Source: Clostridia bacterium
Lineage (GTDB): Bacteria; UBA6262; WVXT01; JAUXBS01
Direction: 5' to 3'
Assembly (NCBI GenBank): GCA_030619245.1
Contig: JAUXBS010000006.1
Span: 1-19,160 of the forward strand
Length of the DNA: 19,160 nt
Shown: one piece after another, positions 3,375 to 19,160 of the stretch
How positions within the stretch are numbered: position 1 is the first letter of the stretch
Layout: each line of letters starts with the position of its first letter
Notes under the pieces: generated by a model
What the model was told of the DNA's origin: nothing
Database searches by the model: none
The model's input: only the letters and a program-made list of their open reading frames with translations
Position numbers and translations under genes: made by a program

Positions 3375-5340
3375 GATTATAATAAAGGGAGCAAAGGAAC
3401 ATAACCTGAAGAATATCAGCCTGGAGATTCCCCGGAACAGGTTTGTTGTCATAACAGGGTTGTCCGGTTCCGGCAAGTCATCTCTTGCGTTTGATACGAT
3501 TTTTGCCGAAGGCCAGAGGAGGTATGTTGAGTCACTGTCCACCTATGCAAGGCAGTTCCTGGGACAGATGGAAAAACCGGACGTTGAGCAGATACAGGGA
3601 CTTTCTCCTTCCATAGCCATCCAGCAGAAGGGCCTGAGCCGTAACCCGCGTTCAACTGTGGGAACCCTTACTGAAATTTATGATTACATGAGGCTGCTGT
3701 TTGCCCGTATCGGCCACCCGCACTGCCCTAATTGCGGCAGGGAGATAAAGCCCCAGACTTCGCAGGAAATAATTGAGAAGGTCATGGGACTGCCCCTGAA
3801 ATCCGAAATAACAGTGCTTGCGCCGCTGGTCAGGGGTAGGAGGGGAGAATACAGGGAACTATTTGAGAGAATACGCAAGCAGGGTTTCGTGCGCGTAAGG
3901 GTTGACGGCAGCGTTTACGGCCTGGATGAAGAAATCAAGCTGAATAAGAAGCGGAAGCATAACATAGAAGTTGTTGTTGACCGGCTTGTAATGAAACCCG
4001 GGGTAAAAAAGCGCCTTGCGGATTCCATTGAGACCACGCTTAAACTTGGAGAGGGACAGGTCATAATAAGCAAAAAGCCAGAGGAACTTATATACAGTGA
4101 GCATCACGCCTGCGCGAAGTGCGGGCTCAGCATAGGAGAGGTTTCGCCAAGGGCGTTTTCTTTTAACAGCCCGTATGGCGCCTGTCCTGCGTGCACTGGA
4201 ATTGGTATAAAGTCAGAGGTTTCACCGGACATAGTTGTTCCTGACGGGAGCCTTTCCCTGAACGACGGGGCGATAGAGCCGTGGTCCAATCCGATTACCA
4301 CAAAGACTCACAGGTGGAAGAGTTCGTGGAAGGGCTGGTACTACGAGATGCTGCGCACGGTAAGCGAGCATTATGGGTTCAGCATGGATACTCCTTTTGA
4401 AAAACTTCCAAAGAAGTACCGGGACATTATACTTTATGGTTCAAATGAAGTGTACTACAGGCCGGGCGCTGTGTACGAAGGGGTGATTCCCAGGACTGAA
4501 AGGATTTACAGGGATACAGACTCCGAATACGTGCGTAATGCAATTTTTGAAAAGTACATGCATACAACCACCTGCCCTGCGTGCGGGGGGGACAGGTTGA
4601 AGAAGGAACTGCTGTCAGTAACGGTCAGTAATAAGTCCATCGCGGAAGTTTCCCGGATGTCCATAAAGGAGGCCGGGCTGTTCTTTAATAACCTTAAACT
4701 CACGGAAAAGGAAAAGACTATTGTAAAACAGGTTTTAAAGGAGATAAGGGACAGGCTCGGGTTCTTGATGAGCGTGGGCCTGGATTACATTACTATTGAC
4801 CGCGCTGCTTCAACCCTTGCGGGGGGAGAGGCGCAGAGGATAAATCTTGCCACGCAGATAGGTTCTTCTCTTACGGGTGTAACCTATATACTGGATGAGC
4901 CCACGATAGGGCTTCATTCAAGGGATACCGGGAGGCTCATTGATTCACTTGTTTCATTGAAGAACCTGGGTAATACCCTGATAGTGGTTGAGCATGATAT
5001 AGCAACCATAAACGCGGCTGACCATATCATTGACCTGGGCCCCGGCGCGGGAGAACACGGCGGCAGGATAGTGGTTTCAGGCAGTCTTGATAAGGTAATG
5101 AGGTGTAAGAGCTCGCTTACAGGGAAATACCTTAAAGGTGAATTGAAAGTTCCGGTGCCTGAGGAAAGGAGGCCCGTAAAGCCTGATAGGGTTATTGAGA
5201 TAAAGGGGGCCTCACAGTTTAACCTGAAGGATATTAATGTCAGGATTCCACTGGGGCTTTTCGTATGTATAACGGGAGTGTCAGGGTCAGGGAAGAGCAC
5301 TTTAATTCAGGAAATACTGTATAAAGCGCTGGCGCGGTAA
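3361..5340 (+). CDS. uvrA: Excinuclease ABC subunit A, N-terminal 659 residues (gene interrupted by in-frame TAA)
   Basis: UvrA is the damage-recognition ATPase of nucleotide excision repair, acting with UvrB and UvrC. This segment contains the first Walker A (GLSGSGKS, residues 33-40), the first zinc module (CPNC near 122, then CAKC and CPAC around residues 250-277), a CPAC cysteine pair near residue 404, the first ABC signature (LAGGEAQRI, 486-494), the first Walker B (LDEP, 511-514) and the second Walker A (GVSGSGKST, 639-647). It then meets TAA at 5338-5340, directly after ALAR, where UvrA proteins normally continue with a lysine and LY. The reading frame continues without a shift to 6183. 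As drawn, the truncated product would lack the second signature and Walker B and the C-terminal zinc finger, so it should be non-functional. GGAG at 3354-3357 is the SD, and the start overlaps nadB by 14 bp. Confidence 0.95.
5338..5340 (+). other. uvrA: In-frame TAA stop inside uvrA
   Basis: Codon 660 of an otherwise intact 940-codon uvrA frame is TAA. The flanking codons read [17 protein letters not shown], where family members usually carry Lys (AAA or AAG). One A-to-T change from AAA would create it. No frameshift is involved, because 3361 to 6183 is a multiple of three with no other in-frame stop. It could be a sequencing or assembly error, a strain-level nonsense mutation, or a recoded stop. 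Confidence 0.9.
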
Positions 5341-6183
5341 CTATACCGGTCAAAGGATGAGCCGGGAAGGCACAGGGAAATCAGGGGGCTTAAGAATATA
5401 GATAAAATTATAGATATTAACCAGTCACCGATTGGCAGGACTCCCCGGTCCAATCCTGTGACGTATATCGGGATGTTCACGATGGTGCGGCAGTTGTTTG
5501 CCTGGCTCCCCGAATCAAAGATGAGGGGGTACAGCCCGGGGAGGTTCAGTTTTAATGTAAAGGGCGGGCGCTGCGAAGCCTGCCAGGGCGACGGCCTGAT
5601 AAAGATTGAAATGCAGTTCCTGGCTCCTGTTTACGTTACATGTGAAGTGTGCAAGGGGAAGAGGTATAACAGCGAGACCCTGGAGGTAAGGTACAGGGGA
5701 AAGAATATATCCGAGGTGCTGGACATGAGTGTGGAGGAAGCCCTGGAATTCTTCAAGAATATTCCCAGGGTCAGGGAGAAACTTAAAACACTGTTTGATG
5801 TAGGGTTGGGATATATTAAACTCGGCCAGTCAGCCACGACCCTTTCAGGCGGCGAGGCGCAAAGGATTAAGTTGTCAAAGGAGCTTTCCAGGCGTTCAAC
5901 CGGCAAGACCCTTTATATTCTTGATGAACCCACGACCGGGCTGCACTTTGCTGATATCGAAAAACTGCTTGATATCCTTCACCGGCTTGTGGGCGCAGGC
6001 AATACCGTGCTTATGATAGAGCATAACCTTGATGTGATAAAGACGGCTGATTATATTATTGACTTGGGCCCTGACGGCGGGGAACTGGGCGGCTGTATCG
6101 TGGCTGAAGGCGCGCCTGAAAAAGTGATGAAGAATAAGAAGTCATATACCGGCAGGTACCTGGATAAATACATGAAGAAGTAA
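5341..6183 (+). CDS. uvrA: Excinuclease ABC subunit A, C-terminal part, in the same frame after the internal stop
   Basis: This is the continuation of the uvrA frame, and the first GTG in it is at 5458. It supplies the rest of the second ATPase half: [19 protein letters not shown], the C-terminal zinc finger with cysteines at full-length positions 738, 741, 761 and 764 (E. coli has 740, 743, 763 and 766), the second signature LSGGEAQRI, Walker B (LDEPTTGLH) and the closing H-loop (IEHNLDVI). The stop is TAA at 6181-6183. Joined with the upstream part the protein is 940 residues, the usual UvrA length. No SD-preceded in-frame start was found between 5341 and 5458, so independent translation of this part is doubtful. 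The sequence shows no further decay, which argues for a recent mutation or a base-call error. Confidence 0.9.
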
Positions 6184-8041: not shown

Positions 8042-9673
8042 TTGGGGAAAGAAATAATAAACTATAAGAAAGTTGTACCGGTCATAGTAGTTTGTTTGCT
8101 TGTCATAATGTTTATTCAGGCAGTGCTCAGCCTGCGCCTGAAATCCCTTACCTTTGATGAAACTTCACACCTGCCGGCGGGCTACAGTTACCTGAAAACC
8201 GGTGATTACAGGATTAACCTGGAACAACCTCCCTTGATAAAACTCCTTGCGGGGTTTCCATTGCTTTTCATGAAATTAAATCTCCCCCTGTACAGTAATT
8301 ACTGGAAAGAAAACTCACAGTACCAGTTCGGTAAATTCTTCATTTTTTATTCGGGGAACAATGCTGAAAGGATAATTTTCTGGGGGCGGATTCCCATGGT
8401 TCTGCTTGCGGTCCTCCTGGGTTACTTTATCTTCATCTGGACGGAAAGGCTTTATGGAGCCGGGGCAGGGCTGTTCGCGTTATTTTTCTATGTATTCAGC
8501 CCCAACATGCTGGCTTATTCAAGGCTGGTTGTTATGGACTTCGGCCTCGGGTGTTTCATGCTGATGGCGTGTTACCAACTGTGGAGGTACCTGGAGAAAC
8601 CCTCGCCGGGCGGGCTGGCCCTTGCGGGTGTATTCACGGGGCTTGCGCTGGTTACGAAGTTTTCTGCAGTAATGCTTTTGCCCGTGTTCCTGGTGATGGC
8701 TGTATACAGGGTGTTTATTGACAAGAGGGGGATGAAGGTTATAACACCGGGTAATGATACTCCTGATATTACATCCGGGATACTGTTTATTGTAAGCGGA
8801 TTTCTGGTTATCTCCGTTATATCCATCGTGATTATCTACCTGGTTTACGGGCTGAAGGGAGATGCTCTTGGTATGTATAAAAAAGGCCTGGATATGATAT
8901 ATTATAATCAGGAGCAGAGTTATAAATTCTATATGAACGGTAAATTTTCACCGGAGCCCTGGTGGTATTATTACCTTTTTGCCTTTCTTGTCAAGACACC
9001 CGTTCCCACGCTGATTATGATAATCTTTGCGGCAGTCCTTTTAAAGAAACAAAAACATGATTTATACAGGGAAATGTGGTTATTGTTACCTGTGTTGATT
9101 ATTCTCTTTACCAGTTTTTTTGATGCGCGTAACCTCGGTTTAAGGAGGATACTGCCTGTTTATCCGTTTTTGTTTGTTTTTATCGGCAAGGTTGCCTCCG
9201 GAAAGGAACCCTGGTTATTTCCGGTAAAAAAGAATACACGCAATGTCATCATTGGGGTTTTATGTGTCTGGTATATTATTTTGTCGGTCGGGATTTACCC
9301 TGATTATCTCACTTATTTTAATGTCCTTGCCGGGGGGGCAAAAAACGGGATAAACTATCTTGATGATTCAAATATAGACTGGGGCCAGGATTTAAAAAGG
9401 TTGAAGACGTACATGGATAAGAATAACATACCGCAGGTTAAGCTGAAGTACTTCGGGACTTCTGATGAAAAGTATTATAAGATTAATTCAGTCCCGCTGG
9501 AAAACAGCGAACTGGTGAACGGTCCCAGGCCGGGTAATTACTATGCCATGAGCGCTCATTTCCTTGCGCGCCTGAAACTGGCGGTTATTGAAGGGTCAGT
9601 AAAAGTTGACTGGCTGAAAGAATACGAGCCCGTGGATGTTATCGGGAATACTATATACATTTATAAATTCTAG
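8042..9673 (+). CDS. GT39/PMT-like membrane glycosyltransferase
   Basis: The 543-residue GT-C-fold protein has an N-terminal helix (about residues 10-28) followed by a first loop bearing the acidic pair FDETSHLPAGYSYL (the Asp-Glu position used by PMT and ArnT enzymes) and EQPPLIKLLAGFPLLF. About nine more hydrophobic segments follow (residues 105-420). The C-terminal part has LDDSNIDWGQDLKRL and a short soluble domain ending VIGNTIYIYKF. These enzymes use a polyprenyl-phosphate sugar to glycosylate protein or lipid on the periplasmic side. The start is the TTG at 8042, because TGA directly precedes it in frame and the next ATG (8108) would cut into the first helix; the SD is weak. It is paralogous to the gene at 15189 (shared LDSNIDWGQDL, same ending) but lacks TPRs. 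The stop codon overlaps the end of the inverted-repeat element. Confidence 0.85.
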   Translation: MGKEIINYKKVVPVIVVCLLVIMFIQAVLSLRLKSLTFDETSHLPAGYSYLKTGDYRINLEQPPLIKLLAGFPLLFMKLNLPLYSNYWKENSQYQFGKFFIFYSGNNAERIIFWGRIPMVLLAVLLGYFIFIWTERLYGAGAGLFALFFYVFSPNMLAYSRLVVMDFGLGCFMLMACYQLWRYLEKPSPGGLALAGVFTGLALVTKFSAVMLLPVFLVMAVYRVFIDKRGMKVITPGNDTPDITSGILFIVSGFLVISVISIVIIYLVYGLKGDALGMYKKGLDMIYYNQEQSYKFYMNGKFSPEPWWYYYLFAFLVKTPVPTLIMIIFAAVLLKKQKHDLYREMWLLLPVLIILFTSFFDARNLGLRRILPVYPFLFVFIGKVASGKEPWLFPVKKNTRNVIIGVLCVWYIILSVGIYPDYLTYFNVLAGGAKNGINYLDDSNIDWGQDLKRLKTYMDKNNIPQVKLKYFGTSDEKYYKINSVPLENSELVNGPRPGNYYAMSAHFLARLKLAVIEGSVKVDWLKEYEPVDVIGNTIYIYKF

Positions 9674-9744
9674 TGCTCTGTGACATAAATTCCCGATGTT
9701 TTTGCTATGGGATTTTGAGCCGCGCCAAAGCAACGAGAGGCGAG

Positions 9745-9759
9745 CATATCGGGAATATG
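9745..9759 (+). repeat. Internal hairpin of the inverted-repeat element, left half
   Basis: CATAT-CGGGA-ATATG forms a 5-bp stem. It is nested in a larger imperfect stem whose outer arms are GCAACG (9730-9735) and CGTTGC (9769-9774). It corresponds to the hairpin at 9850-9865 read on the opposite strand. Confidence 0.5.
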
Positions 9760-9849
9760 TAAGCCGAGCGTTGCAAAGGCACAGGCCAAAAGCTCTTTGC
9801 CCTTCGGGAGGCTAAATTCCGGGCAACTTCTTCGTTGTTTCGTCGGTTA

Positions 9850-9865
9850 CAATGCTACCGCATTG
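9850..9865 (-). repeat. Internal hairpin of the inverted-repeat element, right half
   Basis: On the minus strand this reads CAATG-CGGTAG-CATTG and continues TAACCGA. It parallels CATAT-CGGGA-ATATG-TAAGCCGA of the left half. Stem bases differ between the two copies, but pairing is kept. Confidence 0.5.
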
Positions 9866-9936
9866 CGCCCTCCTCACGCCTTGAATTTGCCTCAGACTAT
9901 AGCCTCAAAAATATCGGTAATTTATGTCACCGAGCA

Positions 9937-10350
9937 CTAGTCTTTATTAAAGACTTTTTCAAACTTTTTTATCAGTCGGAAGGTGAAGAAATAGGTAAAT
10001 GGTTTTGAGAAGTTGCCGAACTGGTCAACCAGGAGGTGTATGGTATAGCCAATGTTAAAGCCAAGCAGTACTGTATTGTTGCCGGTGATGTATATTATCC
10101 ATAGTATTGCGGGAATCTCGTATGAATGAAGTATAAGGTAAAACTTTTTTAATTTATAGTTGTTGCAGGTTTCAAAGAAATCATTTATACTGAACTTGAA
10201 TTTTGAATAGAGAAGGTAGTCCGGGATATGGTCAAGGTCAATAAAAACTCCCGTGAGCAAACAAGCTGTTGCGGAATATACCGACTTTGTCAGGAAATAC
10301 ACGGCTCCGCTTAAGGGTAATGAAATAAGAATGTGGTTTTTTAACTTAAT
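9937..10350 (-). CDS. YdjM/DUF457-like membrane-bound metal-dependent hydrolase, probable AUU start
   Basis: Read from 10350 the protein has 137 residues. It has an N-terminal hydrophobic segment, then FIDLDHIPDYL (acidic/His metal-type motif), LILHSYEIPAILW with a second His, and GYTIHLLVDQF with a third His-Asp pair. Four hydrophobic stretches are visible. This order matches the YdjM-type inner-membrane putative hydrolases (DUF457); the substrate is unknown. The start is unusual. The frame has no ATG near the N-terminus, and the first conventional start, GTG at 10302, would remove residues ILISLPLSGA that fit the family N-terminus. AAGGAG (10364-10359) is correctly spaced from ATT at 10350-10348, so AUU is the best-supported start. 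It is convergent with the GT39 gene and divergent from the TMTC-like gene. Its TAG stop overlaps the element end. Confidence 0.72.
   Translation of the reverse strand: MKLKNHILISLPLSGAVYFLTKSVYSATACLLTGVFIDLDHIPDYLLYSKFKFSINDFFETCNNYKLKKFYLILHSYEIPAILWIIYITGNNTVLLGFNIGYTIHLLVDQFGNFSKPFTYFFTFRLIKKFEKVFNKD
9939..9959 (+). terminator. Weak intrinsic-terminator-like hairpin after the GT39 gene
   Basis: AGTCTTT (9939-9945), a 3-nt loop and AAAGACT (9949-9955) give a 7-bp A/T-rich stem, with a T run (9955-9959) at its 3' side on the plus strand. Before the element inserted it would have lain immediately after the GT39 stop. It also encodes the last codons of the convergent gene. The stem is weak, so function is uncertain. 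Confidence 0.3.
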
Positions 10351-10364
10351 TTTAAACTCTCCTT
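10348..10364 (-). promoter_or_regulatory. SD plus AUU initiation site
   Basis: On the minus strand AAGGAGAG is followed by TTTAAA and then ATT AAG. The gap from GGAG to ATT is 8 nt, which is ideal. No ATG, GTG or TTG lies in frame at this distance. AUU starts are known in bacteria, classically infC, where IF3 discriminates against them. Confidence 0.5.
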
Positions 10365-10391
10365 GAAATTATTGTTTAATTATAATACAAT
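10363..10391 (+). promoter_or_regulatory. Promoter for the TMTC-like gene
   Basis: TTGAAA (10363-10368) and TACAAT (10386-10391) are separated by 17 nt. The leader would be about 36 nt, with AGGAGG at 10420-10425 before the TTG start at 10434. The -35 box covers the initially transcribed region and SD of the opposite gene. Confidence 0.5.
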
Positions 10392-10407
10392 TCAGCAGTA
10401 ATTTCAA
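10379..10407 (-). promoter_or_regulatory. Promoter for the YdjM-like gene
   Basis: On the minus strand TTGAAA (10407-10402) and TATAAT (10384-10379) are separated by exactly 17 nt. Transcription would begin near 10372, giving a short leader that carries the AAGGAG site. It overlaps the opposing promoter at 10363-10391. Confidence 0.6.
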
Positions 10408-10433
10408 GTGTGTAATTTCAGGAGGTTTTTAGC

Positions 10434-12413
10434 TTGGTTAAGAAAAGAAAAAATAAAAAGAAACCGGAGGCCCGGGGTAAAAAGCCCGGGGGGGGCAGGG
10501 CGCTTTCCGGGAAATCCACTTCATCAAAGAAAAAGGCCGTGAAGAAATCCCCGCATAAGAGTAAAAGAAGTTCCGGTAATACCGCGGCGGTTCATAAGCC
10601 TCACATTAAGAAAAAGAAGGCTTATGTGAAAAAAAGAGTGGAGGCGCCGGCGGTTATTGAAGAGAAAAGACAGTTGAGATTAAGGCCGGGCGCCCTGGAA
10701 AAACGCTGGGTTGGTATCGTGTGCGTAATATTCCTTGCTCTTGTTGTTTATTCCAATATTTATCAGAACCGGTTCATTTATGATGATACGGCTTTTATAG
10801 TGGAAAACGATTCAATCAGGAGCCTGGATAATATCGGCAGGTTCTTTGGGTCGTTGAAGTCCTTCTCGGCAAAAGGGAATTTCTTCATATACAGGCCCCT
10901 TCCAACGTTGACTTTTGCCCTGGATTACGGTATATGGGGATTGAGCCCGAGCCATTTTCATATACTGAACGTACTCTTCCATGTGTTGAACGGGATACTG
11001 GTTTACCTGCTCGCGAATGCGTTGATAAGAAACCGGCTTGGGGCTCTTGTGGCGGCGCTTGTGTTCGTGGCGCATCCTGTTCAGGTTGAATCCGTTACGT
11101 GGATAGCCGGCAGGAGCAACCTTATGTTCCTGGCATTCTACCTGGTGTCCCTGATTGCATATATAAGGATTCACGAAGTGAGAGAAGGGAAAAGGATTAA
11201 GTACATATTTATTTTACTTCTTTCTTTTTCTCTGGCGCTGCTGTCAAAGGAAATGGCGATTACCCTGCCTATTATCATCATCATGTATGATTTTTACTAT
11301 GCGGACAGGGCTCGGTTCAGGAATGTACTGAGGAATATAAAATATTACCTGCTGCTCGGTGTTATTGCCGGCGGCTACCTGTACATCCGGTACACAGTCC
11401 TTGGAAGGCTGAGCGGCCAGAATGAATATATAGGAGGAAGCCTTTCCAGCGCGCTTCTTACGATGTCCAGGGGGGTTGTATACTACATTAAACTGCTTTT
11501 TTATCCTATAAAGTTAAGCGCCATTTATGTGTTATCCGTATCAAAATCCATTTTTGAAACGCCGGTGGTGTTTTCCATAAGTATCATTCTTTTATTATTA
11601 ATTATATCCGTAGTATTATTGAAAAGGTCCAGGGCGGCGTCCTTTGCAATAATGTGGTTCTTTGTTACCCTGCTCCCGGTATACAATATAATCCCGCTTC
11701 AGGACGTGGCCATTGCTGAGAGGTTCCTTTACCTGCCTTCAATCGGTTTTTGTATCCTGCTCGGGTTGTTAGGCATGAAGATGTTCGGTATGAAAGAGAA
11801 GGAGCACAAGAGGAATGCGGGAGTTGTGTTTATTGTCCTGCTCGTGATATTCTTTTCATTAAAAACCATGAGCAGGAATACCGACTGGAGGGATGAGGAA
11901 TCCTTCTGGAGAGCGACGGCAGAGACCGCTCCTGAAAGTGACAGGGTTTATAATTCCCTGGGTTATTTAAGCATGGGGAAGGATATAAACGGGGCAATTA
12001 AGTATTATGAAAAGTCACTCAGGTTAAATCCCGATAACTTGAATGCTCAAAATAACCTCGCCATAGCATACGCGGAAAAAGGATGGCATGAAAAGGCAAT
12101 CAGGAAATTCAAGGATGTCTTAAGAAAAGATCCCCTTGACAGTTTTACTCACAACAATCTCGGGCATGTCTATATAAGGATAGGCCTTTACAACAATGCT
12201 ATCAGGGAATGCAAAAAAGCCATAGAATTAAATCCCTCCAACAGTACTGCTTTTATTCACTTAGGGCTTGCCTATGAAAAGAAAAGGAACTATTCTGAAG
12301 CTTTAAACCAGTATAATATTGCCATTGAAAAGGACCCGGATAATCATAATGCCAGGGCCGGCAAAGAACGTGTGCTTAAAGCGCTCTACGAAAGAAAAAT
12401 GAGAGTGTATTGA
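10434..12413 (+). CDS. TMTC-like O-mannosyltransferase with lysine-rich N-tail and C-terminal TPRs
   Basis: The 659-residue protein starts at TTG after a perfect AGGAGG (10420-10425). Residues 1-90 are a strongly basic, low-complexity cytoplasmic tail (runs such as KKRKNKKK and SKKKAVKKS). A transmembrane helix (about 93-111) is followed by the loop NRFIYDDTAFIVEND with the Asp-Asp pair at the catalytic position of TMTC proteins. Then come FIYRPLPTLTFALDY, HILNVLFHVLN, HPVQVESVTWIAGRSNLM and LLSKEMAITLPIIIIMYDFY, all hallmarks of the TMTC family, whose animal members O-mannosylate cadherins. About ten membrane helices are followed by roughly four TPR units (about residues 500-645). The predicted role is O-glycosylation of envelope or secreted proteins, with TPRs contacting acceptors on the periplasmic side. 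It is transcribed divergently from the YdjM-like gene. Confidence 0.85.
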   Translation: MVKKRKNKKKPEARGKKPGGGRALSGKSTSSKKKAVKKSPHKSKRSSGNTAAVHKPHIKKKKAYVKKRVEAPAVIEEKRQLRLRPGALEKRWVGIVCVIFLALVVYSNIYQNRFIYDDTAFIVENDSIRSLDNIGRFFGSLKSFSAKGNFFIYRPLPTLTFALDYGIWGLSPSHFHILNVLFHVLNGILVYLLANALIRNRLGALVAALVFVAHPVQVESVTWIAGRSNLMFLAFYLVSLIAYIRIHEVREGKRIKYIFILLLSFSLALLSKEMAITLPIIIIMYDFYYADRARFRNVLRNIKYYLLLGVIAGGYLYIRYTVLGRLSGQNEYIGGSLSSALLTMSRGVVYYIKLLFYPIKLSAIYVLSVSKSIFETPVVFSISIILLLLIISVVLLKRSRAASFAIMWFFVTLLPVYNIIPLQDVAIAERFLYLPSIGFCILLGLLGMKMFGMKEKEHKRNAGVVFIVLLVIFFSLKTMSRNTDWRDEESFWRATAETAPESDRVYNSLGYLSMGKDINGAIKYYEKSLRLNPDNLNAQNNLAIAYAEKGWHEKAIRKFKDVLRKDPLDSFTHNNLGHVYIRIGLYNNAIRECKKAIELNPSNSTAFIHLGLAYEKKRNYSEALNQYNIAIEKDPDNHNARAGKERVLKALYERKMRVY

Positions 12414-12721
12414 ATAAAATGCGCGCTGCCTGTGTATATATGTGTGAAAGTAAAAATGCCTGACGTGAAAACGGAGAAAGGTGATTTTTAAATAAGTTTG
12501 AGCAACAGCGTAGCGGGAAGGGCCAGGTTCCAAATCAAAAGAAATATAAGAGGCTCTTTAGCAGTATAAAGTGTGATAATTAGAAATAATAATGATGTAC
12601 TTTTCATAAATGAAACCCACATGCCACGTTGGAGCCCGTGGCGCAAAAAAGGATGAAAATCATCCCCTCACCCCAACCTCTCCTATCCGAGGAATAATGG
12701 ATAGGTTGAAACAATTATAAT
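12414..12721. other. 308-bp intergenic stretch with short hairpins, no gene
   Basis: No credible coding frame was seen. Three stem-loops cluster at the right: GCCACG/CGTGGC (12623-12642), GGATGA-AAA-TCATCC (12651-12665) and CTATCC/GGATAG (12683-12704). The segment 12665-12682 (CCCTCACCCCAACCTCTC) resembles the C-rich CCCTCACCC-type sequence I associate with dispersed intergenic repeats in many bacteria; this is from memory only. It may be the worn remnant of a small repeat element next to a gene fragment. Confidence 0.45.
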
Positions 12722-12916
12722 TTGGATAGCAATGATGAAGTTTATTATAACATAGGATTGATGTATTATTTAAAAAATAATTATAAAAAAGCTGTCCAGG
12801 GATTCCAGAGATGCGTAGACATAAACCCACATACAAAAGAAGCGGTTCTGTCAAAGGAGAATATCAGTATTATTAATGGTATTATTGAAAACAGAGCTGT
12901 CAGCCCGGTTAATTAA
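12722..12916 (+). pseudogene. TPR-domain remnant, probably the tail of a lost GT39-TPR gene
   Basis: An open frame of 64 codons begins at TTG 12722 (in-frame TGA at 12707-12709) and ends in TAA at 12914-12916. DEVYYNIGLMYYLKNNYKKA followed by VQGFQRCVDINPH is one good TPR unit, and the rest is degenerate. There is no SD, no signal peptide and no membrane part. The start resembles the junction between the membrane domain and TPRs of the gene at 15189 (TNDYNSYYNIGILYYKVL), and 15 bases are identical (12743-12757 and 16788-16802). It is therefore better explained as the 3' remnant of a duplicated GT-TPR gene than as a small independent protein. A free-standing one-repeat protein cannot be excluded. 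Confidence 0.55.
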
Positions 12917-12978
12917 AACGTAGAGACAGAGAATTTATTGTGAAATAATATTTCCAGGAAAGCAGGGGTTATTCTATT

Positions 12979-15192
12979 ATGGAAAAAACGGTCAGAAAAA
13001 ATAGCAGCACAATTCCTATGATTTTGATGGTAATAATATTACTCTCTGTATTTTTAAGGATTGTCTTGCTTGATAAAGTACCTAATGGTTTATTCTCGGA
13101 TGAAGCAAGATTTGGTTATGAAGCATACTCGCTTATAGAAACAGGGAAAGATATGACTAATAAATCTTTTCCTCTGGTTTTTGACGCTTATGAAGACCCG
13201 AGTTCTGTAACAGAGGGGATGTTTACCTATATTTGTATTCCCTTTATTCATATCTTTGGCATGAATGAATTTGGAGTAAGAATAGCTTCGGCTGTCTTGG
13301 GAGTGCTAACTGTTTTCTTTATTTTCTTGTTAGTAAAAGAAATGTTTAATGAGAAAACCGCTTTATTGGCGGCTCTGTTATTATCAATATCTTCCTGGCA
13401 TGTCCAATACAGCAGGATTAGTTTTGAGGTTATAGCTCTGCCTTGTTTTGTAGTAATTGGTTTGTATTTCTTTTATAAGGCGATTAATGAAAATCCTAAA
13501 TGGTTGATTTATAGCGCAGTGTTATTCGCTTTGAGCATGTATTCATATTCGGTTTCAAAATTATTTATACCGCTGCTCTTGATGGCAATATTTTTCGTTT
13601 ACCGGGAATATATAATTAAGAATAAAAAGGTTGTAATAAAAGCTCTCATATTCTTTGTTATAATCCTTATCCCTCTTATTAATCTCGCGCTATTTGACAG
13701 CGGGGACACAGCGGCAAGGTTCGACCGTATATCTATATTTACAAAGGGGCATGGTATTTTTGATTATACGATAATGTTTGTAAAGAATATGATTACATAC
13801 TATTCTCCCGGGTTTTTATTCTTTAAAGGCGATCCGCTTATACGCCATTCAATAAGAGGTTTTGGTCAAATGCATATATTTCATCTGCCTTTTATTTTAA
13901 TTGGGATATATATGTGCATAAGAAAGAATAAGCTGAAAAATAAATTATTATTGGCCTGGCTATTGATGTTTCCTGTTGCCGGGAGTTTAACATTTAGTGA
14001 AGGAGGGCATGCTTCCAGGGTTATTGCCGGACTGCCTTTACTGATAATACTTTCAGCATATGGATTATATAGTTCCTGGTCATACATAAGAAATAACAGG
14101 AGAAAATTAGCGGGTGTTTTTATCGTACTGGTTGCGCTCATAATAACATCTAATTCTGTAATATATTTTTATAACTACTTTGTCAAGTATCCTGAATATT
14201 CCGGGCCTGACTGGCTGTACGGTTATCGTGAAGCGGTTAATTATATAGAAAAAGTAAAGGATACATACAGAAATGTGTATATTTATGATAAACCTGATAG
14301 AAAAACAGAATATGTAAATATTTTATTCTATAACAAGTATGCCCCGGAGAAATTTCAAAGAGATAAGTTTCGGGGTTCAAAATATCGTTTTATTAGAATG
14401 AATGCGGATAATTTGCTGAAATTCTATCAAAGTGATGAAAAGAATGATTTATTCCTGGTAAGAGCATATGACCTAAAAGATATAAAGCCGGAACATATTG
14501 TCTATTATCCCAATGGCATGATAGCTTATAAGTTAATAAAATCCGGAACCGGGGAAACCTTTAATGAGGAAATTGCCGAGTACAAAGAAATATTGAAGAA
14601 AAATGTTGATGTACCGCTGGCGCATTTTAAACTGGGGTTTTATTACCACACTAATAATATGCCGGATAAAGCTCTGGTGGAATACAAAAAAGCGATTGAG
14701 TTAAAAAGAAACTTCTCTAAAGCTTATTTTAATATAGGTGTTATTTATCAGAATCTCGGCAGGCATGAAGAAGCAATTGACGAATATAAAAAAGCTATAA
14801 ATGAAAACCCGGGGTATGCCGAGGCTTATAATAACCTGATTGCGCTTTGTAATGCCCTGGGAAATAAAGATGAAGAGTTTAAATATACAGAATTATTATT
14901 GAAGAAGAAACCGTATTCTTTTGAAGCTCATTTTAATGCTGCTGTTGAATATTATAATAGGGGAAAAATAGATAAAGCTATCAAAGAGTATAAATATGCG
15001 CTGAAACTGGAGCCGGATTTTCATAGAACACATATGTATCTTGGTTATGCGTACAACAAAAAAGGACTTCATGATAAAACGAGGGAAGAATATATAAAAG
15101 CGCAAAAAATAGTCAAAAGAAAATTAACAACGAATCCTTCTGAAGAACTAAACTCCGATTATCAGGAAATATGCAGGTTTCTTAAGAGATGA
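12979..15192 (+). CDS. GT-C (ArnT/PMT-like) membrane glycosyltransferase with C-terminal TPRs
   Basis: The 737-residue protein has a first transmembrane helix (about residues 12-30) and a loop with FSDEARFGYEAY, the Asp-Glu placement of GT-C enzymes. FGVRIASAVLGVLTVF and LLSISSWHVQYSRISFEVIALP follow, the latter resembling the segment after the second helix in ArnT/GT39 proteins. About ten to eleven helices extend to residue ~390, then a soluble domain (400-530; DWLYGYREAVNYIEKV), then about five TPR units (545-720; for example AHFKLGFYYHTNNMPDKALV and AYFNIGVIYQNLGRHEEAI). The likely role is periplasmic sugar transfer from a polyprenyl-phosphate donor, with TPRs for partner binding; the acceptor is unknown. 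The ATG has only a modest purine-rich AGGGG upstream. The gene ends overlapping the next by 4 bp (ATGA, 15189-15192). It is distinctly AT-rich compared with nadB and uvrA. Confidence 0.83.
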   Translation: MEKTVRKNSSTIPMILMVIILLSVFLRIVLLDKVPNGLFSDEARFGYEAYSLIETGKDMTNKSFPLVFDAYEDPSSVTEGMFTYICIPFIHIFGMNEFGVRIASAVLGVLTVFFIFLLVKEMFNEKTALLAALLLSISSWHVQYSRISFEVIALPCFVVIGLYFFYKAINENPKWLIYSAVLFALSMYSYSVSKLFIPLLLMAIFFVYREYIIKNKKVVIKALIFFVIILIPLINLALFDSGDTAARFDRISIFTKGHGIFDYTIMFVKNMITYYSPGFLFFKGDPLIRHSIRGFGQMHIFHLPFILIGIYMCIRKNKLKNKLLLAWLLMFPVAGSLTFSEGGHASRVIAGLPLLIILSAYGLYSSWSYIRNNRRKLAGVFIVLVALIITSNSVIYFYNYFVKYPEYSGPDWLYGYREAVNYIEKVKDTYRNVYIYDKPDRKTEYVNILFYNKYAPEKFQRDKFRGSKYRFIRMNADNLLKFYQSDEKNDLFLVRAYDLKDIKPEHIVYYPNGMIAYKLIKSGTGETFNEEIAEYKEILKKNVDVPLAHFKLGFYYHTNNMPDKALVEYKKAIELKRNFSKAYFNIGVIYQNLGRHEEAIDEYKKAINENPGYAEAYNNLIALCNALGNKDEEFKYTELLLKKKPYSFEAHFNAAVEYYNRGKIDKAIKEYKYALKLEPDFHRTHMYLGYAYNKKGLHDKTREEYIKAQKIVKRKLTTNPSEELNSDYQEICRFLKR

Positions 15193-17183
15193 ATAAAAGA
15201 ACAGAAAATATATTATTAATAGTTTTAATTATTTTTATACCAATCCAGGCATTGACAAGTATAATATGGAAATCCGCAACCACGGATGAACCCGAGCATA
15301 TCGCTGCAGGCTACTACTACTGGGTGACAGGAGACTTCTGGATGGGGAAGGAAAACCCGCCGCTGGTGAAATTAATTTCAGCTGTGCCTCTCTTATTTTT
15401 TAAATCAGAACATCCGGGGGAGAATAGAACTGTTCAGCAGGGTGGATATCTTGAATATGTTGATAACTTCATACATCATAACTATTTAAGCGCAAAAAAA
15501 ATAATATTCATATCAAGAATCCCCGCAGTGTTATTAACCATGATTATGGCGTATTTTGTGTTTATATGGTCCCGGCGGCTATATGGTATAAAGGCAGGTT
15601 TTCTGGCATTATTCCTTACGGTGTTTTCTCCAAATATACTTGCGCATTCAAGGCTGGCGGCAACAGACATGGGAACTGCTGTGTTTATGTTTATTGCAGT
15701 TTATTGTTTTTGGAGGTGGCTGACATCATTTAAAAAGAAACACATGGTAGCTGCGGGAATTACCCTGGGCTTGGCTTTAGCTGCCAAATTTACCAGCGTA
15801 ATTCTGTTGCCTTCCTTCCTGATTATTATTGCAGCGTATTTTATATTTCAAAAGCCCGATGCATTTAAAAACAAAACAGGCCGTTTTATATTACAGGTTA
15901 TCGTAATATTAACCTTAGCAGTGTTGACTTTGGTTTTGTGTTATGGTGTGTTCTCCGCTGATAATTACTTCACCGGATTTAGAAAGGTGTCGGAGATAAT
16001 AAGCAGGGGCCATTCTTCCTATCTTTTAGGTAATTACTCCGAAACAGGGTGGAGGCATTATTTTTTAATAGCTTTTCTTGTAAAAACTTCTGTGCCTGTT
16101 ATTGTTTTACTTTTAATATGCATAATCACATATATACGGAAGAATAACAAAAAACAGGCTGTTAATATAAATAATTTATGTTTAATTATTCCAGCGCTGC
16201 TAATATTTTTTGTTTCGTCGTTCAGTCCCAAGCAGATAGGGCTTAGATATGTATTGTTAATATATCCATTTCTATTCGTTTTTCTTGGTAAATCCGCATG
16301 TGTTAAAAATAAATATAAAGCAGTTATAATATCAGTTCTTTGTGGATGGTATGTGTTTTCATCAGTAAGAGTATTTCCGCATTATTTATCGTATTTTAAT
16401 GAGCTTGCCGGAGGGCCTGATAATGGATATAAGTACTTACTGGATTCCAATATTGACTGGGGACAGGATCTTAACGGATTGAAAAAATACCTGGATGAAA
16501 AAGAAGCAGATAATCTTATTCTATCCTATTGCGGGACAGGCAACCCATTGAATTGGGGTATTAAATATCAGGATTTGATGTCTCCACTGGGATTAACACA
16601 GCCAACACAGCATATAAATCAAATAATGGCCAATGGGGGAAAAGAATATTTAGCTGTTAGTTTGAATAATATGCACAGCCTTCTTTATAATGATAAAACT
16701 GTTTTCAATTGGTTGAAATCATATTCACCGGTTAAAATAATAGGCCATACAATATATGTATATGATATAACAAATGATTATAACTCGTATTATAACATAG
16801 GAATACTATATTATAAAGTACTTAACCATATTAAGAAAGCATTTGTTGAAGAAAATACTCACGTTGATGCTTTGTCAGCAAATATCTTGAACAAGTTAAT
16901 CGCGGCTTTTGATAAAACAAAAAAAATAAACCCTGAATTCATAGATGTTTATAATTACCTCGGTGTTATTTATGCGGAAAACGGAATGAATAATGAGTCT
17001 ATCAGGGAATTTGAGAAGATCATTGAAATTGCTCCTGAAAATAAAATAGTATATAAAAATCTTGGGTTAGTTTATAAAAAAATGGGGAATAAGAAAAAAG
17101 CTGTGGATTATTGGAAAAAATACATTCAGAAATACCCTGAGGCTCCTGATGTGAAAATTATTAAGCAGGAGATAGAGTATTAA
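15189..17183 (+). CDS. GT39/PMT-like membrane glycosyltransferase with C-terminal TPRs
   Basis: The 664-residue protein is a close paralogue of the gene at 8042. It has ATTDEPEHIAAGYYYWVTGD (acidic pair in the first loop), ENPPLVKLISAVPLLFF, SPNILAHSRLAATDMGTAVF, IGLRYVLLIYPFLFVFLGK and LDSNIDWGQDLNGLKKYL, and the GT part ends IIGHTIYVYDI. Unlike that paralogue it continues with a TPR region: a partial unit near 530-545 and two clear units (about 584-655; DVYNYLGVIYAENGMNNESI and VYKNLGLVYKKMGNKKKAV). About ten to eleven membrane helices are present. It is predicted to transfer a sugar to periplasmic or exported proteins. It is translationally coupled to the preceding gene through ATGA. Base composition is AT-rich, like its partner. 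Confidence 0.86.
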   Translation: MNKRTENILLIVLIIFIPIQALTSIIWKSATTDEPEHIAAGYYYWVTGDFWMGKENPPLVKLISAVPLLFFKSEHPGENRTVQQGGYLEYVDNFIHHNYLSAKKIIFISRIPAVLLTMIMAYFVFIWSRRLYGIKAGFLALFLTVFSPNILAHSRLAATDMGTAVFMFIAVYCFWRWLTSFKKKHMVAAGITLGLALAAKFTSVILLPSFLIIIAAYFIFQKPDAFKNKTGRFILQVIVILTLAVLTLVLCYGVFSADNYFTGFRKVSEIISRGHSSYLLGNYSETGWRHYFLIAFLVKTSVPVIVLLLICIITYIRKNNKKQAVNINNLCLIIPALLIFFVSSFSPKQIGLRYVLLIYPFLFVFLGKSACVKNKYKAVIISVLCGWYVFSSVRVFPHYLSYFNELAGGPDNGYKYLLDSNIDWGQDLNGLKKYLDEKEADNLILSYCGTGNPLNWGIKYQDLMSPLGLTQPTQHINQIMANGGKEYLAVSLNNMHSLLYNDKTVFNWLKSYSPVKIIGHTIYVYDITNDYNSYYNIGILYYKVLNHIKKAFVEENTHVDALSANILNKLIAAFDKTKKINPEFIDVYNYLGVIYAENGMNNESIREFEKIIEIAPENKIVYKNLGLVYKKMGNKKKAVDYWKKYIQKYPEAPDVKIIKQEIEY

Positions 17184-17293
17184 TTTCCGGTTAAAAATCA
17201 AAGGTCCAATTTAGAGAATGTATATCTATATGGAAAGTAATCTGCATTTCTATTCATTATTTCCAATTCCTGCCCACCTGACCCCCCTTTATC

Positions 17294-17322
17294 TTGACAT
17301 CCTGAACCATTTAATATAATAT
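17294..17322 (+). promoter_or_regulatory. Promoter for the MORN/response regulator/DUF2723 operon, leaderless-type
   Basis: A consensus TTGACA (17294-17299) is followed by TATAAT (17315-17320; 15-nt spacer) or the overlapping TAATAT (17317-17322; 17-nt spacer). The start of transcription would be about 17328-17330, only a few bases before the ATG at 17333, which lacks an SD. The rest of the intergenic region 17184-17293 shows only an imperfect GGAAA/TTTCC inverted repeat and nothing else I can support. Confidence 0.6.
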
Positions 17323-17332
17323 ATTATAATAA

Positions 17333-17950
17333 ATGATTAAAATAATAGAATTAACCGTATTATCACTGTTGTTATCAGAAACTGCTCTTGCTGCCGTTAT
17401 AATCAAAAGAACGGAATCAAATTATCCGGACGGCAATCCCCGGGAAGTTGTCTATTTTCTAAAGGATGAGGAAGTGGCAAGGGAAAGTTTTGATGAGGAG
17501 GGTAATATTTCCAGGCTGGGTGTAATGCCGGATGGAGTTGTGGAAGAGTATTACGATAGTAAAACCATAAAGGTAAAGAGCAGGTTCAAGAATGGCAGGA
17601 GGAACGGCAGGACCAGGGAATATTATGAAAATGGCAAGCCAAAAGCCTTGATAAATTATGTGGATGGGATAAAAAATGGTAAGACCAGGGAATATAATGA
17701 AAACGGGAAGCTTGAGAAGAAGATAAATTACGAGAATGGCGTGAAGTCAGGGCTTACCAGGGAGTATGATGCGAACGGTAAAATTGAACATGGATGGAAT
17801 TACCGGGATGGAGTGCTTGAAGGTGTGAGTTACAGGTATTTTTCCAACGGCATGGTGCGCTGGGAGGAAGGCTACAGGGTTGGGAAGAAACAATACAGGA
17901 AGAAGTTCAGCAAGAAAGGCAGGATGATATCAAAAAAGGAATATGAATGA
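17333..17950 (+). CDS. Secreted MORN-variant repeat protein (YwqK-like)
   Basis: The 205-residue protein has a signal peptide: a hydrophobic core at residues 7-15 and an Ala-Leu-Ala site at 18-20, so cleavage is expected after residue 20. An N-terminal region (22-90) carries looser repeats of the same type (YPDGNPREVVYF, FDEEGNIS). It is followed by three regular 24-residue units beginning TREYYENGKP, TREYNENGKL and TREYDANGKI (residues 94-165), then a fourth diverged unit (YRYFSNGMVRWEEGYR). This YxxNGK...Y.nG pattern is the MORN_2/YwqK repeat. Such repeats form beta-hairpin stacks with binding roles; no enzyme activity is evident. The protein is probably periplasmic or surface-exposed. The start fits the promoter and signal peptide although no SD exists. 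The response-regulator gene follows after 15 bp. Confidence 0.8.
   Translation: MIKIIELTVLSLLLSETALAAVIIKRTESNYPDGNPREVVYFLKDEEVARESFDEEGNISRLGVMPDGVVEEYYDSKTIKVKSRFKNGRRNGRTREYYENGKPKALINYVDGIKNGKTREYNENGKLEKKINYENGVKSGLTREYDANGKIEHGWNYRDGVLEGVSYRYFSNGMVRWEEGYRVGKKQYRKKFSKKGRMISKKEYE
17612..17827 (+). repeat. Three tandem 72-bp coding repeats
   Basis: Units at 17612-17683, 17684-17755 and 17756-17827 each begin ACCAGGGA(A/G)TAT and encode the 24-residue MORN-type repeats. The first two are the most alike at their 5' halves (ACCAGGGAATAT then ATGAAAA). The nucleotide similarity suggests relatively recent unit duplication. Confidence 0.75.
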
Positions 17951-17951
17951 T

Positions 17952-17968
17952 GGAGGTGAGTTAAAATC
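17952..17968 (+). promoter_or_regulatory. Perfect SD plus AUC initiation site
   Basis: GGAGGTGA (17952-17959) is fully complementary to the 16S 3' end. It lies 9 nt (measured from GGAGG) before ATC at 17966-17968. TGA at 17957-17959 is in frame just upstream, so no earlier start exists. CTG at 17981 and TTG at 17999 would remove the first strand or the acidic pocket of the receiver domain. Confidence 0.55.
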
Positions 17969-18340
17969 AAGGAAAGAATACTGATAGTTGATGATGAATT
18001 GTTTATAGTTGAGGGGTTGAAGGCATACTTTGAAATGGACGGTTATGAGGTGATAACAGCTTCAAACGGCAAGGATGCAATAGAACTGGCGAAAACCCGG
18101 AAGCCGGACCTGATAATGCTTGATATTATGATGCCGGACCTTAACGGCTGGCAGGCGTTGCAGGTGCTCAAGCAGGAAGAGAGTACCAGGGATATACCGG
18201 TTATTATGGCTTCCGTCATGGAGAAGGATGAAGATATAAAGATGAGTCTTTCACTGGGGGCGGTAGATTATATTGTAAAGTCCCAGGATGCGGATAAAAT
18301 TGTTGATAAGATTAAGACAATCCTAAATGAAAAAAAATAA
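17966..18340 (+). CDS. Single-domain response regulator (CheY-like receiver), probable AUC start
   Basis: From ATC 17966 the product is 124 residues, exactly one receiver domain. Visible features are RILIVDDE with the acidic pair Asp9-Asp10, the phospho-acceptor Asp53 in LIMLDIMMPDLNGW, the switch Ser83 in PVIMASV, and Lys105 in GAVDYIVKS, where the usual Lys-Pro has become Lys-Ser. There is no output domain, so it would act by protein contact or within a phosphorelay. No histidine kinase is nearby. Starting at the conventional TTG (17999) would delete the first beta strand and both acidic residues, so the AUC start is preferred. The gene lies 15 bp after the MORN gene and overlaps the DUF2723 gene by 14 bp, suggesting one operon. 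Confidence 0.85.
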   Translation: MKERILIVDDELFIVEGLKAYFEMDGYEVITASNGKDAIELAKTRKPDLIMLDIMMPDLNGWQALQVLKQEESTRDIPVIMASVMEKDEDIKMSLSLGAVDYIVKSQDADKIVDKIKTILNEKK

Positions 18341-19160
18341 TTATCTGGTTGGGCTGGTTGTTTTCCTGGCAGCTTTTGGTTTATATGTTAAGACACTTTG
18401 TCCGTCGATATATACGCAGGACAGCGGGGAGTTTATTACCACTGCCTGTACCCTGGGCGTGTCTCATCCATCAGGTTACCCGCTTTATAATGTCCTGGGG
18501 AAGTGTTTTTCCCTGCTCCCTTTCAGTAACCCCGCTTTCAGGGTGAACCTGATGTCCGCATTCTTTGGCGCGTTGACCGCGGCCCTGGTTTACTTCATAA
18601 TCCTCAAACTGTGTTCTGCTGTTATCCCGGCAGTTATCGGCGCGCTGTTCTTGTTGGTTTCAAGGACGTTGTGGTTCCTGTCAACGGTTGCAGAGGTATA
18701 TTCGCTGAACGCCTTTTTTACAGCGCTTATAATCCTGGTGCTCCTTCACTGGAACGGCAGGGCCGTGTACCTGTACCTGTTAGCCTTTCTTTTTGGCCTG
18801 AGTTTAACCAACCATCAAACGATGGTTATATGCGGGATTGCCTCCGGGTACTTCGTTCTGTCAGCCAGGAAGGATAATCCGGTATCCGGGCGGGATATTA
18901 AAGCCATGTTCCTGTTATTCCTGCTGGGCTTTTCACTGTATTTATACCTGCTGATACGCGCGGTAAAAGGGCCGGTTCTGTGCTGGGGCGCGCCCGATTC
19001 GCTAAACAGGTTTATAAGGGTTATTATGAGGTCGGATTACGGCATGATGGAAATGGGCGCTTTCAAGGATACCGCCCGCACTTTTGATTTGATGATGAAG
19101 CAGTTATATGGATACTTTACTTCTCTTGCCGGCCAGTTCAATATTGCCGGTTTCCTTACA
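18327..19160 (+). CDS. DUF2723 (TMEM260-like) membrane glycosyltransferase, 3' end outside window
   Basis: ATG at 18327 opens a frame of 278 codons that reaches the right edge. It shows the canonical DUF2723 start: a helix (residues 5-22), then IYTQDSGEFITTACTLGVSH, PSGYPLYNVLGKCFSLLPF and FRVNLMSAFFGALTAAL. TLWFLSTVAEVYSLNAFFTA and LFGLSLTNHQTMVICGIASG follow, with several helices. QDSGEF is the acidic motif in the first external loop. The eukaryotic relative TMEM260 transfers mannose to protein; the bacterial substrate is unknown. The start overlaps the end of the response regulator by 14 bp, so translation is probably coupled. It is a more typical family member than the left-edge gene, which has DSARF in place of DSGEF. 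Confidence 0.87.
   Translation, partial: MKKNNYLVGLVVFLAAFGLYVKTLCPSIYTQDSGEFITTACTLGVSHPSGYPLYNVLGKCFSLLPFSNPAFRVNLMSAFFGALTAALVYFIILKLCSAVIPAVIGALFLLVSRTLWFLSTVAEVYSLNAFFTALIILVLLHWNGRAVYLYLLAFLFGLSLTNHQTMVICGIASGYFVLSARKDNPVSGRDIKAMFLLFLLGFSLYLYLLIRAVKGPVLCWGAPDSLNRFIRVIMRSDYGMMEMGAFKDTARTFDLMMKQLYGYFTSLAGQFNIAGFLT

Follow-up and report, generated by a model that had tools for sequence, protein, structure and literature searches.

We analysed a 19,160-nucleotide stretch of bacterial DNA (hereafter the window), which is the entire contig C137 of the metagenome-assembled genome G000 (1,516,324 bases in 288 contigs, 76% complete) and which carries six open reading frames (ORFs) for glycosyltransferases of the GT-C type. 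Two of these are relatives of TMEM260 and one is a relative of TMTC, families that act on proteins in the animal endoplasmic reticulum (ER), and the other three are PMT_2-type enzymes. Protein O-glycosylation is their most likely role, with a probability that we put at a little under 0.6, mainly from kinship and from the prepilin genes found beside TMTC-like genes elsewhere. The window suggests a bacterial system that would coat surface proteins with sugar, both the sugar and the acceptors being putative, and on gene counts it is one patch of a lineage-specific GT-C expansion. Comparisons within the lineage cover six genomes (G000-G005): that of the window, G001 (record set JAUXDE01, Clostridia bacterium isolate CSMAG_2843, the sole same-genus genome among 60 relatives listed) and four further genomes of the same order.

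Kinship of the six GT-C enzymes

All six GT-C ORFs are open at the coordinates that an earlier reading of this DNA, made from the sequence only, had assigned to them (Table 1). That sequence-only reading had placed TMEM260 relatives at both ends of the window. Both genes are truncated by the contig ends, both exceed the PF11028 cut-off (24.2 bits), and for both the sole match among sequences of solved structures is TMEM260 (9rql), with phmmer E=7.5e-21 for TMEM260a (residues 22-398) and E=1.1e-31 for TMEM260b (residues 8-273), which upholds the placement. The likeness to TMEM260 (GT117, the O-mannosyltransferase of plexin, cMET and RON IPT domains) extends to DSGE in TMEM260b and to a weak tetratricopeptide repeat (TPR) that its G001 orthologue shows at a sub-threshold 22.3 bits. 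Unlike TMEM260, the proteins described here are bacterial and occur in multiple copies per genome, and TMEM260a carries DSAR (GDSAR at the position of QDSGE in TMEM260b, alignment A3). Relatives of TMEM260a in the loci L135 (11624-13690), L165 and L166 have DSAR/DCAK/DVAK replacing DSGE in the same alignment and can be aligned with one another in their C-terminal part; in the single member scanned, the full-length L135 protein, this part has no Pfam match, which also sets it apart from TMEM260.

The ORF at 10434 had been read as a TMTC relative, and this kinship holds as well. BLAST relates it to a further 21 TMTC-like ORFs or fragments of G000. With TMTC1-4 (GT105, cadherin O-mannosyltransferases) it shares a GT-C domain, C-terminal TPRs and several of the motifs given in Table 4 of PMC7801869: the DD of M1 (DD117-118), YRP (153-155), the KE of M4 (KE272-273) and the ERxxY of M7 (ER429-430, Y433). 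The GT-C fold with TPRs behind it, anticipated from sequence, is seen in the predicted model (predicted local distance difference test, pLDDT, 88.6). Structural neighbours of this model include ArnT and oligosaccharyltransferases; 9rql is absent among the 50 neighbours listed, which is no evidence against kinship, and profiles of alignments A1 and A2 have no sequence match among solved chains, which says little. Pfam matches of the protein are TPRs, plus a marginal PMT_2 match (25.3 bits against a cut-off of 26.1). Its first 80 or so residues (10434-10690) form a Lys-rich tail, presumably cytoplasmic, which is modelled with low confidence, and the G001 orthologue has a similar tail.

The remaining enzymes, GT39a, GTC4 and GT39b, pass the cut-offs of both PMT_2 (26.1 bits) and PMT (PF02366; 22.7 bits), in agreement with the ArnT/PMT-like assignment made earlier for GTC4. 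The PMT/POMT label proposed for GT39a and GT39b is valid at the superfamily level only, because PMT_2 outscores PMT in all three enzymes and no MIR domain is listed among their Pfam matches; on the same grounds, orthology to POMT was rejected. Their likeness to POMT1/2 and bacterial PMT (GT39) consists of a weakly reached PMT profile and, in GT39a and GT39b, a DE in the first loop (D39 and E40 of GT39a are invariant across the 10 rows of alignment A2), and their TPR tails, present in two of the three, are a further difference. GT39b and GT39a are 40% identical. GTC4 is touched weakly by a home-made TMEM260 profile (E 9e-6), and the predicted model of GT39a is poor (pLDDT 56.4, four sequences). 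TPRs stand behind the GT-C part in the TMTC-like protein, GTC4 and GT39b, the three for which they had been claimed, and were found on 29 of 29 full-length paralogues tested.

Prepilin genes beside TMTC-like genes in other records

A scan of genome contigs guided by alignment A1 gave at least 587 stretches, 573 of which encode relatives, and the 79 best-scoring loci among them were compared. By record title these belong to Omnitrophota, Planctomycetes, Elusimicrobia, Deltaproteobacteria, Acidobacteria, Ignavibacteria, Nitrospirae, Gemmatimonadota and others, two being archaeal; they include L188, which is G001, and two same-genome pairs (L206/L208 and L213/L229), none of these with a prepilin adjacency. 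Prepilin genes, called with a motif regular expression, number 27 in the 79 loci. Ten of them, in nine loci, are direct neighbours of a TMTC gene, where shuffling of labels within each locus expects 4.4 genes and 4.0 loci (P = 0.0036 and 0.0024, respectively). A count that misses some TMTC ORFs gave 7/153 direct neighbours against 8/702 other genes (P = 0.009), and P = 0.10 with distance-2 neighbours added. The Pfam N_methyl domain confirms the prepilins of L189, L211, L219, L230, L257 and L261, and those of L214, L220 and L239 are called by the motif only. Geomonas silvestris (L253), a named strain, has a TMTC-like gene with no prepilin gene adjoining it. A prepilin gene, confirmed by N_methyl, also adjoins a TMTC-like gene in the genus itself, in G000 C87 and G001 C15 (2/2, P = 0.05).

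Pilins are classical substrates of O-glycosylation. A precedent is TfpW, a GT-C enzyme encoded as an accessory of the pilin gene, which glycosylates its associated pilin (group IV) in Pseudomonas aeruginosa, according to excerpts of PMC11841053. Because of the prepilin adjacency, this precedent and the known O-glycosylation of pilins, we rank pilins first among the acceptor candidates for some members of the TMTC-like family. TfpW differs in transferring D-arabinofuranose, and its likeness to the TMTC-like enzymes is one of enzyme type and gene arrangement. In the open-licence literature, subscription papers not being covered, we found no report of a TMTC-pilin link.

Co-occurrence of the families was assessed by applying home-made profiles to the 79 loci with up to 10 kb of flank. 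All three families occur together in one locus (L219), and TMTC with a GT39-like gene in two (L219 and L252). PF11028 matches were found in 20 of the 50 genomes of TMTC loci searched, 19 of them over cut-off. The gene order in L219 (Deltaproteobacteria bacterium isolate B60_G16) is a GT39-like gene whose PMT_2 score barely reaches the cut-off (26.1 bits), YfhO, SGNH/AlgX-like, GT2, TMEM260, TMEM260, TMTC on the other strand, prepilin and sigma-54 response regulator; its GT2 protein resembles PgfS and polyprenyl-phosphate transferases, with every score far short of the equivalog cut-off. Enrichment of GT2 genes near TMTC was not significant across the loci (5/277 vs 3/578, P = 0.12).

Gene order and paralogue numbers in the genus

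The sequence-only reading had named conservation of the grouping in relatives as a check on it. Contig C90 of G001 carries, in order, a flavin reductase, ExbB, ExbD, GT39a, the DUF6122-like gene on the opposite strand, TMTC, the response regulator, TMEM260b and a further TMTC-like gene. Identity to the window is 71% for GT39a, 68% for TMTC, 77% for the response regulator and 74% for TMEM260b, and since gene order is kept at only 68-77% identity, conservation of a window core spans considerable divergence. The grouping is partly conserved, in this core and in the unrelated L219, and conservation fails for GTC4, GT39b and the MORN gene, which are missing at the G001 site, where TMTC and the response regulator lie 22 bases apart. 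G001 has kin of GT39b at 43%, 45% and 39% identity; no GTC4 orthologue was found in it (best match E 6.8e-7, 20% identity).

The block that is absent from G001 is lower in GC content (0.350) than the sequence to its left (0.458) or right (0.465). GC content at third codon positions is 0.324 in GTC4 and 0.329 in GT39b and lies at 0.52-0.59 in the four core genes; the MORN gene, at 0.481, is unlike its AT-rich neighbours. Foreign origin cannot be proved from composition by itself, since one in 20 of the 1-kb pieces in other fetched contigs is below 0.345 GC and the MORN gene lacks the AT bias. We infer that the block is probably an insertion rather than a loss in G001. A mobile repeat at its border was considered and rejected, as the 23-base sequence at 12620 is exact only in fetched loci overlapping that place. 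Near the left edge, the 64-aa TPR ORF is probably what is left of the tail of a former GT-C/TPR gene.

Table 1. Features of the window, with the evidence for each
Feature	Coordinates	Strand	Evidence
TMEM260a, TMEM260-like GT-C enzyme cut at contig end	3..1679	-	PF11028 108.3 bits; phmmer to 9rql
GT39a, PMT_2-type GT-C enzyme without TPRs, TTG start	8042..9673	+	PMT_2 51.9 bits, PMT 26.8 bits
DUF6122-like small membrane protein, between GT39a and TMTC	9937..10302	-	PF19617 17.2 bits, sub-threshold (cut-off 27)
TMTC-like GT-C enzyme, C-terminal TPRs, Lys-rich N-terminal tail	10434..12413	+	TPR matches, motifs, model, G001 orthologue
Block between TMTC and response regulator	12414..17950	.	absent at same G001 site
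64-aa TPR ORF near left block edge	12722..12916	+	
GTC4, PMT_2 GT-C enzyme, C-terminal TPRs	12979..15192	+	PMT_2 74.6 bits, PMT 35.2 bits, TPRs
GT39b, PMT_2 GT-C enzyme, C-terminal TPRs	15189..17183	+	PMT_2 44.0 bits, PMT 26.5 bits, TPRs
MORN_2 repeat protein, hydrophobic N-terminus	17333..17950	+	PF07661 64.5 bits
Response regulator, single-domain receiver	17969..18340	+	PF00072 86.4 bits
TMEM260b, TMEM260-like GT-C enzyme cut at contig end	18327..19160	+	PF11028 130.6 bits; phmmer to 9rql

The window genes fall into several units. A single operon was rejected given the opposite-strand DUF6122-like gene, which has a homologue at the same place in G001, and the 565-base gap before GTC4. GT39b overlaps the end of GTC4 by 4 bases, and the response regulator overlaps TMEM260b by 14 bases; since TMTC, the response regulator and TMEM260 are closely consecutive in G001, this unit may be co-transcribed. 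The reading frame of the response regulator is open upstream of the listed TTG, with an ATC after GGAGGTGA at the natural beginning, where G001 has ATG, and a non-standard ATC start is probable. Further left, a uvrA gene (3361-6183) is split by one in-frame TAA (5338-5340) into ORFs at 3361-5340 and 5458-6183 of the same frame, the TAA being either a sequence error or a real nonsense codon. RNA elements were rejected, with 0 Rfam matches at the gathering score.

Across G000 the GT-C families are numerous. We found 29 matches to PMT_2 (at E up to 0.001, overlapping the other GT-C sets), nine to PF11028 (eight over cut-off) and 22 to the TMTC query, and BLAST likewise gave 22 TMTC-like ORFs including that of the window (these sets overlap those of PMT_2 and PF11028). 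In the fetched contigs, GT-C ORFs or fragments total 42 in G000, four of which were added by hand from the PMT_2 matches, and 33 in G001; about 20 in each genome are TMTC-like, in contrast to TMTC1-4. The four same-order genomes gave 1, 1, 0 and 0 matches to the TMTC query, none to PF11028 and 8, 7, 5 and 5 to PMT_2. As the G000 counts far exceed these, the TMTC-like and TMEM260-like families are expanded in the genus. Contig C28 of G000 has a TMTC fragment lying at its end, then a TMTC, a TMEM260 and another TMTC gene, with an overlap of 4 bases at every junction. Expansion of TMTC is not unique to the genus, since L252, L246 and L254 (two labelled Geobacter, one an Omnitrophota record) contain groups of five or six TMTC-like genes.

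The nearest TMTC matches of G001 (L188) in other records are from Omnitrophota, and none of the 60 relatives listed is a same-phylum genome outside its order; for these reasons its label, Clostridia bacterium, looks doubtful.

Proposed role and alternatives

We propose that the window enzymes act as extracytoplasmic GT-C glycosyltransferases. Each would take one sugar, of putative identity, from a polyprenyl-phosphate donor and attach it to Ser/Thr of proteins that are secreted or anchored in the membrane, a reaction that TMTC and TMEM260 perform in the animal ER. The acceptor would be picked by the TPRs or another C-terminal module, and multiplication of the TMTC-like and TMEM260-like enzymes may have allowed the paralogues to divide the surface proteins among themselves. 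The best-supported candidate acceptors for some TMTC-like enzymes are type IV pilins, and secreted Ig/fn3 proteins are a weaker lead. The window itself would consist of a genus-conserved core (GT39a, TMTC, response regulator, TMEM260b) and a probably inserted GTC4-GT39b-MORN block. A more tentative proposal, which we would not favour at present, is that TMTC-like and TMEM260-like enzymes of bacteria are dedicated to protein O-glycosylation, every paralogue having a surface acceptor of its own, be it a type IV pilin or a secreted protein with an Ig/fn3 fold.

The Ig lead comes from the fetched G000 and G001 contigs, in which four of five secreted-looking Rha78A-type Ig proteins (some with fn3 or subtilase) adjoin a GT-C gene. 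Excerpts of PMC11292533 describe human TMTC and TMEM260 as acting on Ig-like folds, with O-mannose also on fn3 and Ig C2 domains. The Ig_Rha78A proteins were set aside as acceptors, as the domain profile found none in the named loci and five proteins are too few (within-contig P = 0.20). Candidate sugar genes also lie near paralogues: a phosphomannomutase/phosphoglucomutase gene stands between two TMTC genes on G000 C201, and G001 C8 has a gene for a GH130 mannoside phosphorylase in the vicinity of GT39b kin, with a homologue near GT39b kin on G000 C60. Genes of mannose-metabolism type are recorded beside or near TMTC-like or GT39-like genes (L152 2271-3734, L131 683-1606 and L167 1649-2572; phosphoglucomutase/phosphomannomutase and GH130, L167 by homology only).

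Several observations weigh against protein O-glycosylation as the role. In the TMTC-like protein, M2 (SHKSYRP) is reduced to YRP, the RxD of M3 is replaced by RSN, and M6 (PxxP) is incomplete, its second P being present by spacing only. Profile searches, proposed earlier as a check, put PF11028, PMT_2 and PMT over cut-off and gave no DUF1736 (PF08409) match to this protein, nor any over the cut-off of 27 bits in the six genomes (best 20.6), and no DW occurs between its residues 277 and 412, so that, unlike in TMTC1-4, the DUF1736/DW loop is not recognised; weak DUF1736 matches occur in 6 of 12 members of alignment A1 (best E 0.0019), and DW is present in those columns in 10 of 66 aligned sequences. 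Cadherin and TIG/IPT domains, on which TMTC1-4 and TMEM260 act, were each found in 0/6 genomes, a further difference from the animal systems, and such acceptors were rejected. No acceptor gene, sugar-donor gene or prepilin motif was recognised among the ORFs of the window; the pilin link comes from other loci, where a pilin gene lies beside a GT-C gene as with TfpW, and 70 of the 79 loci lack it. Within contigs the adjacency of the Ig proteins falls short of significance (four of five, with 2.9 expected; P = 0.20), while the pooled P is 0.024. Finally, enzymes of the PMT_2/ArnT type use lipids or glycans as acceptors as well.

One alternative is that the enzymes modify envelope lipids or polysaccharides, in the manner of ArnT, YfhO or Agl proteins, and that the TPRs only hold an envelope complex together. 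The higher PMT_2 scores of GT39a, GTC4 and GT39b fit it, as do an NCBIfam hint of Agl23 on all three (far below cut-off), the ArnT and oligosaccharyltransferase neighbours of the TMTC model and the YfhO gene of L219. We regard it as doubtful, given the TPRs on every full-length paralogue tested, the prepilin adjacency in several record groups and the known acceptors of TMEM260 and TMTC, which are proteins in the parts of PMC11292533 that deal with them. Less probable still is a division of labour in which the paralogues, as donor-side or elongating enzymes, assemble a polyprenyl-linked glycan that a single one of them transfers to protein: although the fold is common to both kinds of GT-C enzyme and several paralogues stand side by side, the TPR tails suggest that each meets a protein, and no STT3 profile exceeded its cut-off in the four proteins scanned without TPRs (GTC4 13.2 bits against 24.5).

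A separate matter is whether the grouping has functional meaning or merely reflects duplication and rearrangement among some 42 GT-C genes and fragments, an explanation that concerns the grouping and so can hold alongside any of the others. Six of the 42 fall within 19 kb of 1,516 kb, where 0.53 are expected, and a cluster of this kind anywhere has P = 0.005 under uniform random placement, a null that ignores tandem duplication, which would also yield such a cluster. The expansion accounts for part of the grouping, as dozens of paralogues lie elsewhere in G000, the matches to the three profiles (partly the same genes) being spread over 1.5 Mb. The absence of the GTC4-GT39b block in G001 and the rarity of loci with all three families, or with TMTC and GT39-like genes, point the same way, whereas the core order kept in G001 and the overlaps between TMTC and TMEM260 genes speak for some meaning. 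A grouping without function is a serious possibility, if the less probable one. The single dedicated multi-enzyme locus suggested from the sequence finds no support in that form, given the several units, the block absent in G001, the paralogues elsewhere and the one locus in 79 with all families, and the separate acceptor classes suggested along with it are putative.

Returning to protein O-glycosylation, TMTC and TMEM260 have only recently become part of human biology and are tied to disease, and homologues even among prokaryotes receive a passing mention in excerpts of PMC7801869. If each paralogue does serve its own acceptor, the animal scheme of one family per class of Ig-fold acceptor would have a parallel in bacteria, on a much larger scale in a lineage whose genomes measure about 1.5-1.7 Mb. 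If pilins or Ig-fold surface proteins are glycosylated by these enzymes, bacteria would offer simple systems for studying how TPRs choose acceptors and how the animal pathways originated, and a TMTC gene beside a pilin gene would be a direct two-gene test system.

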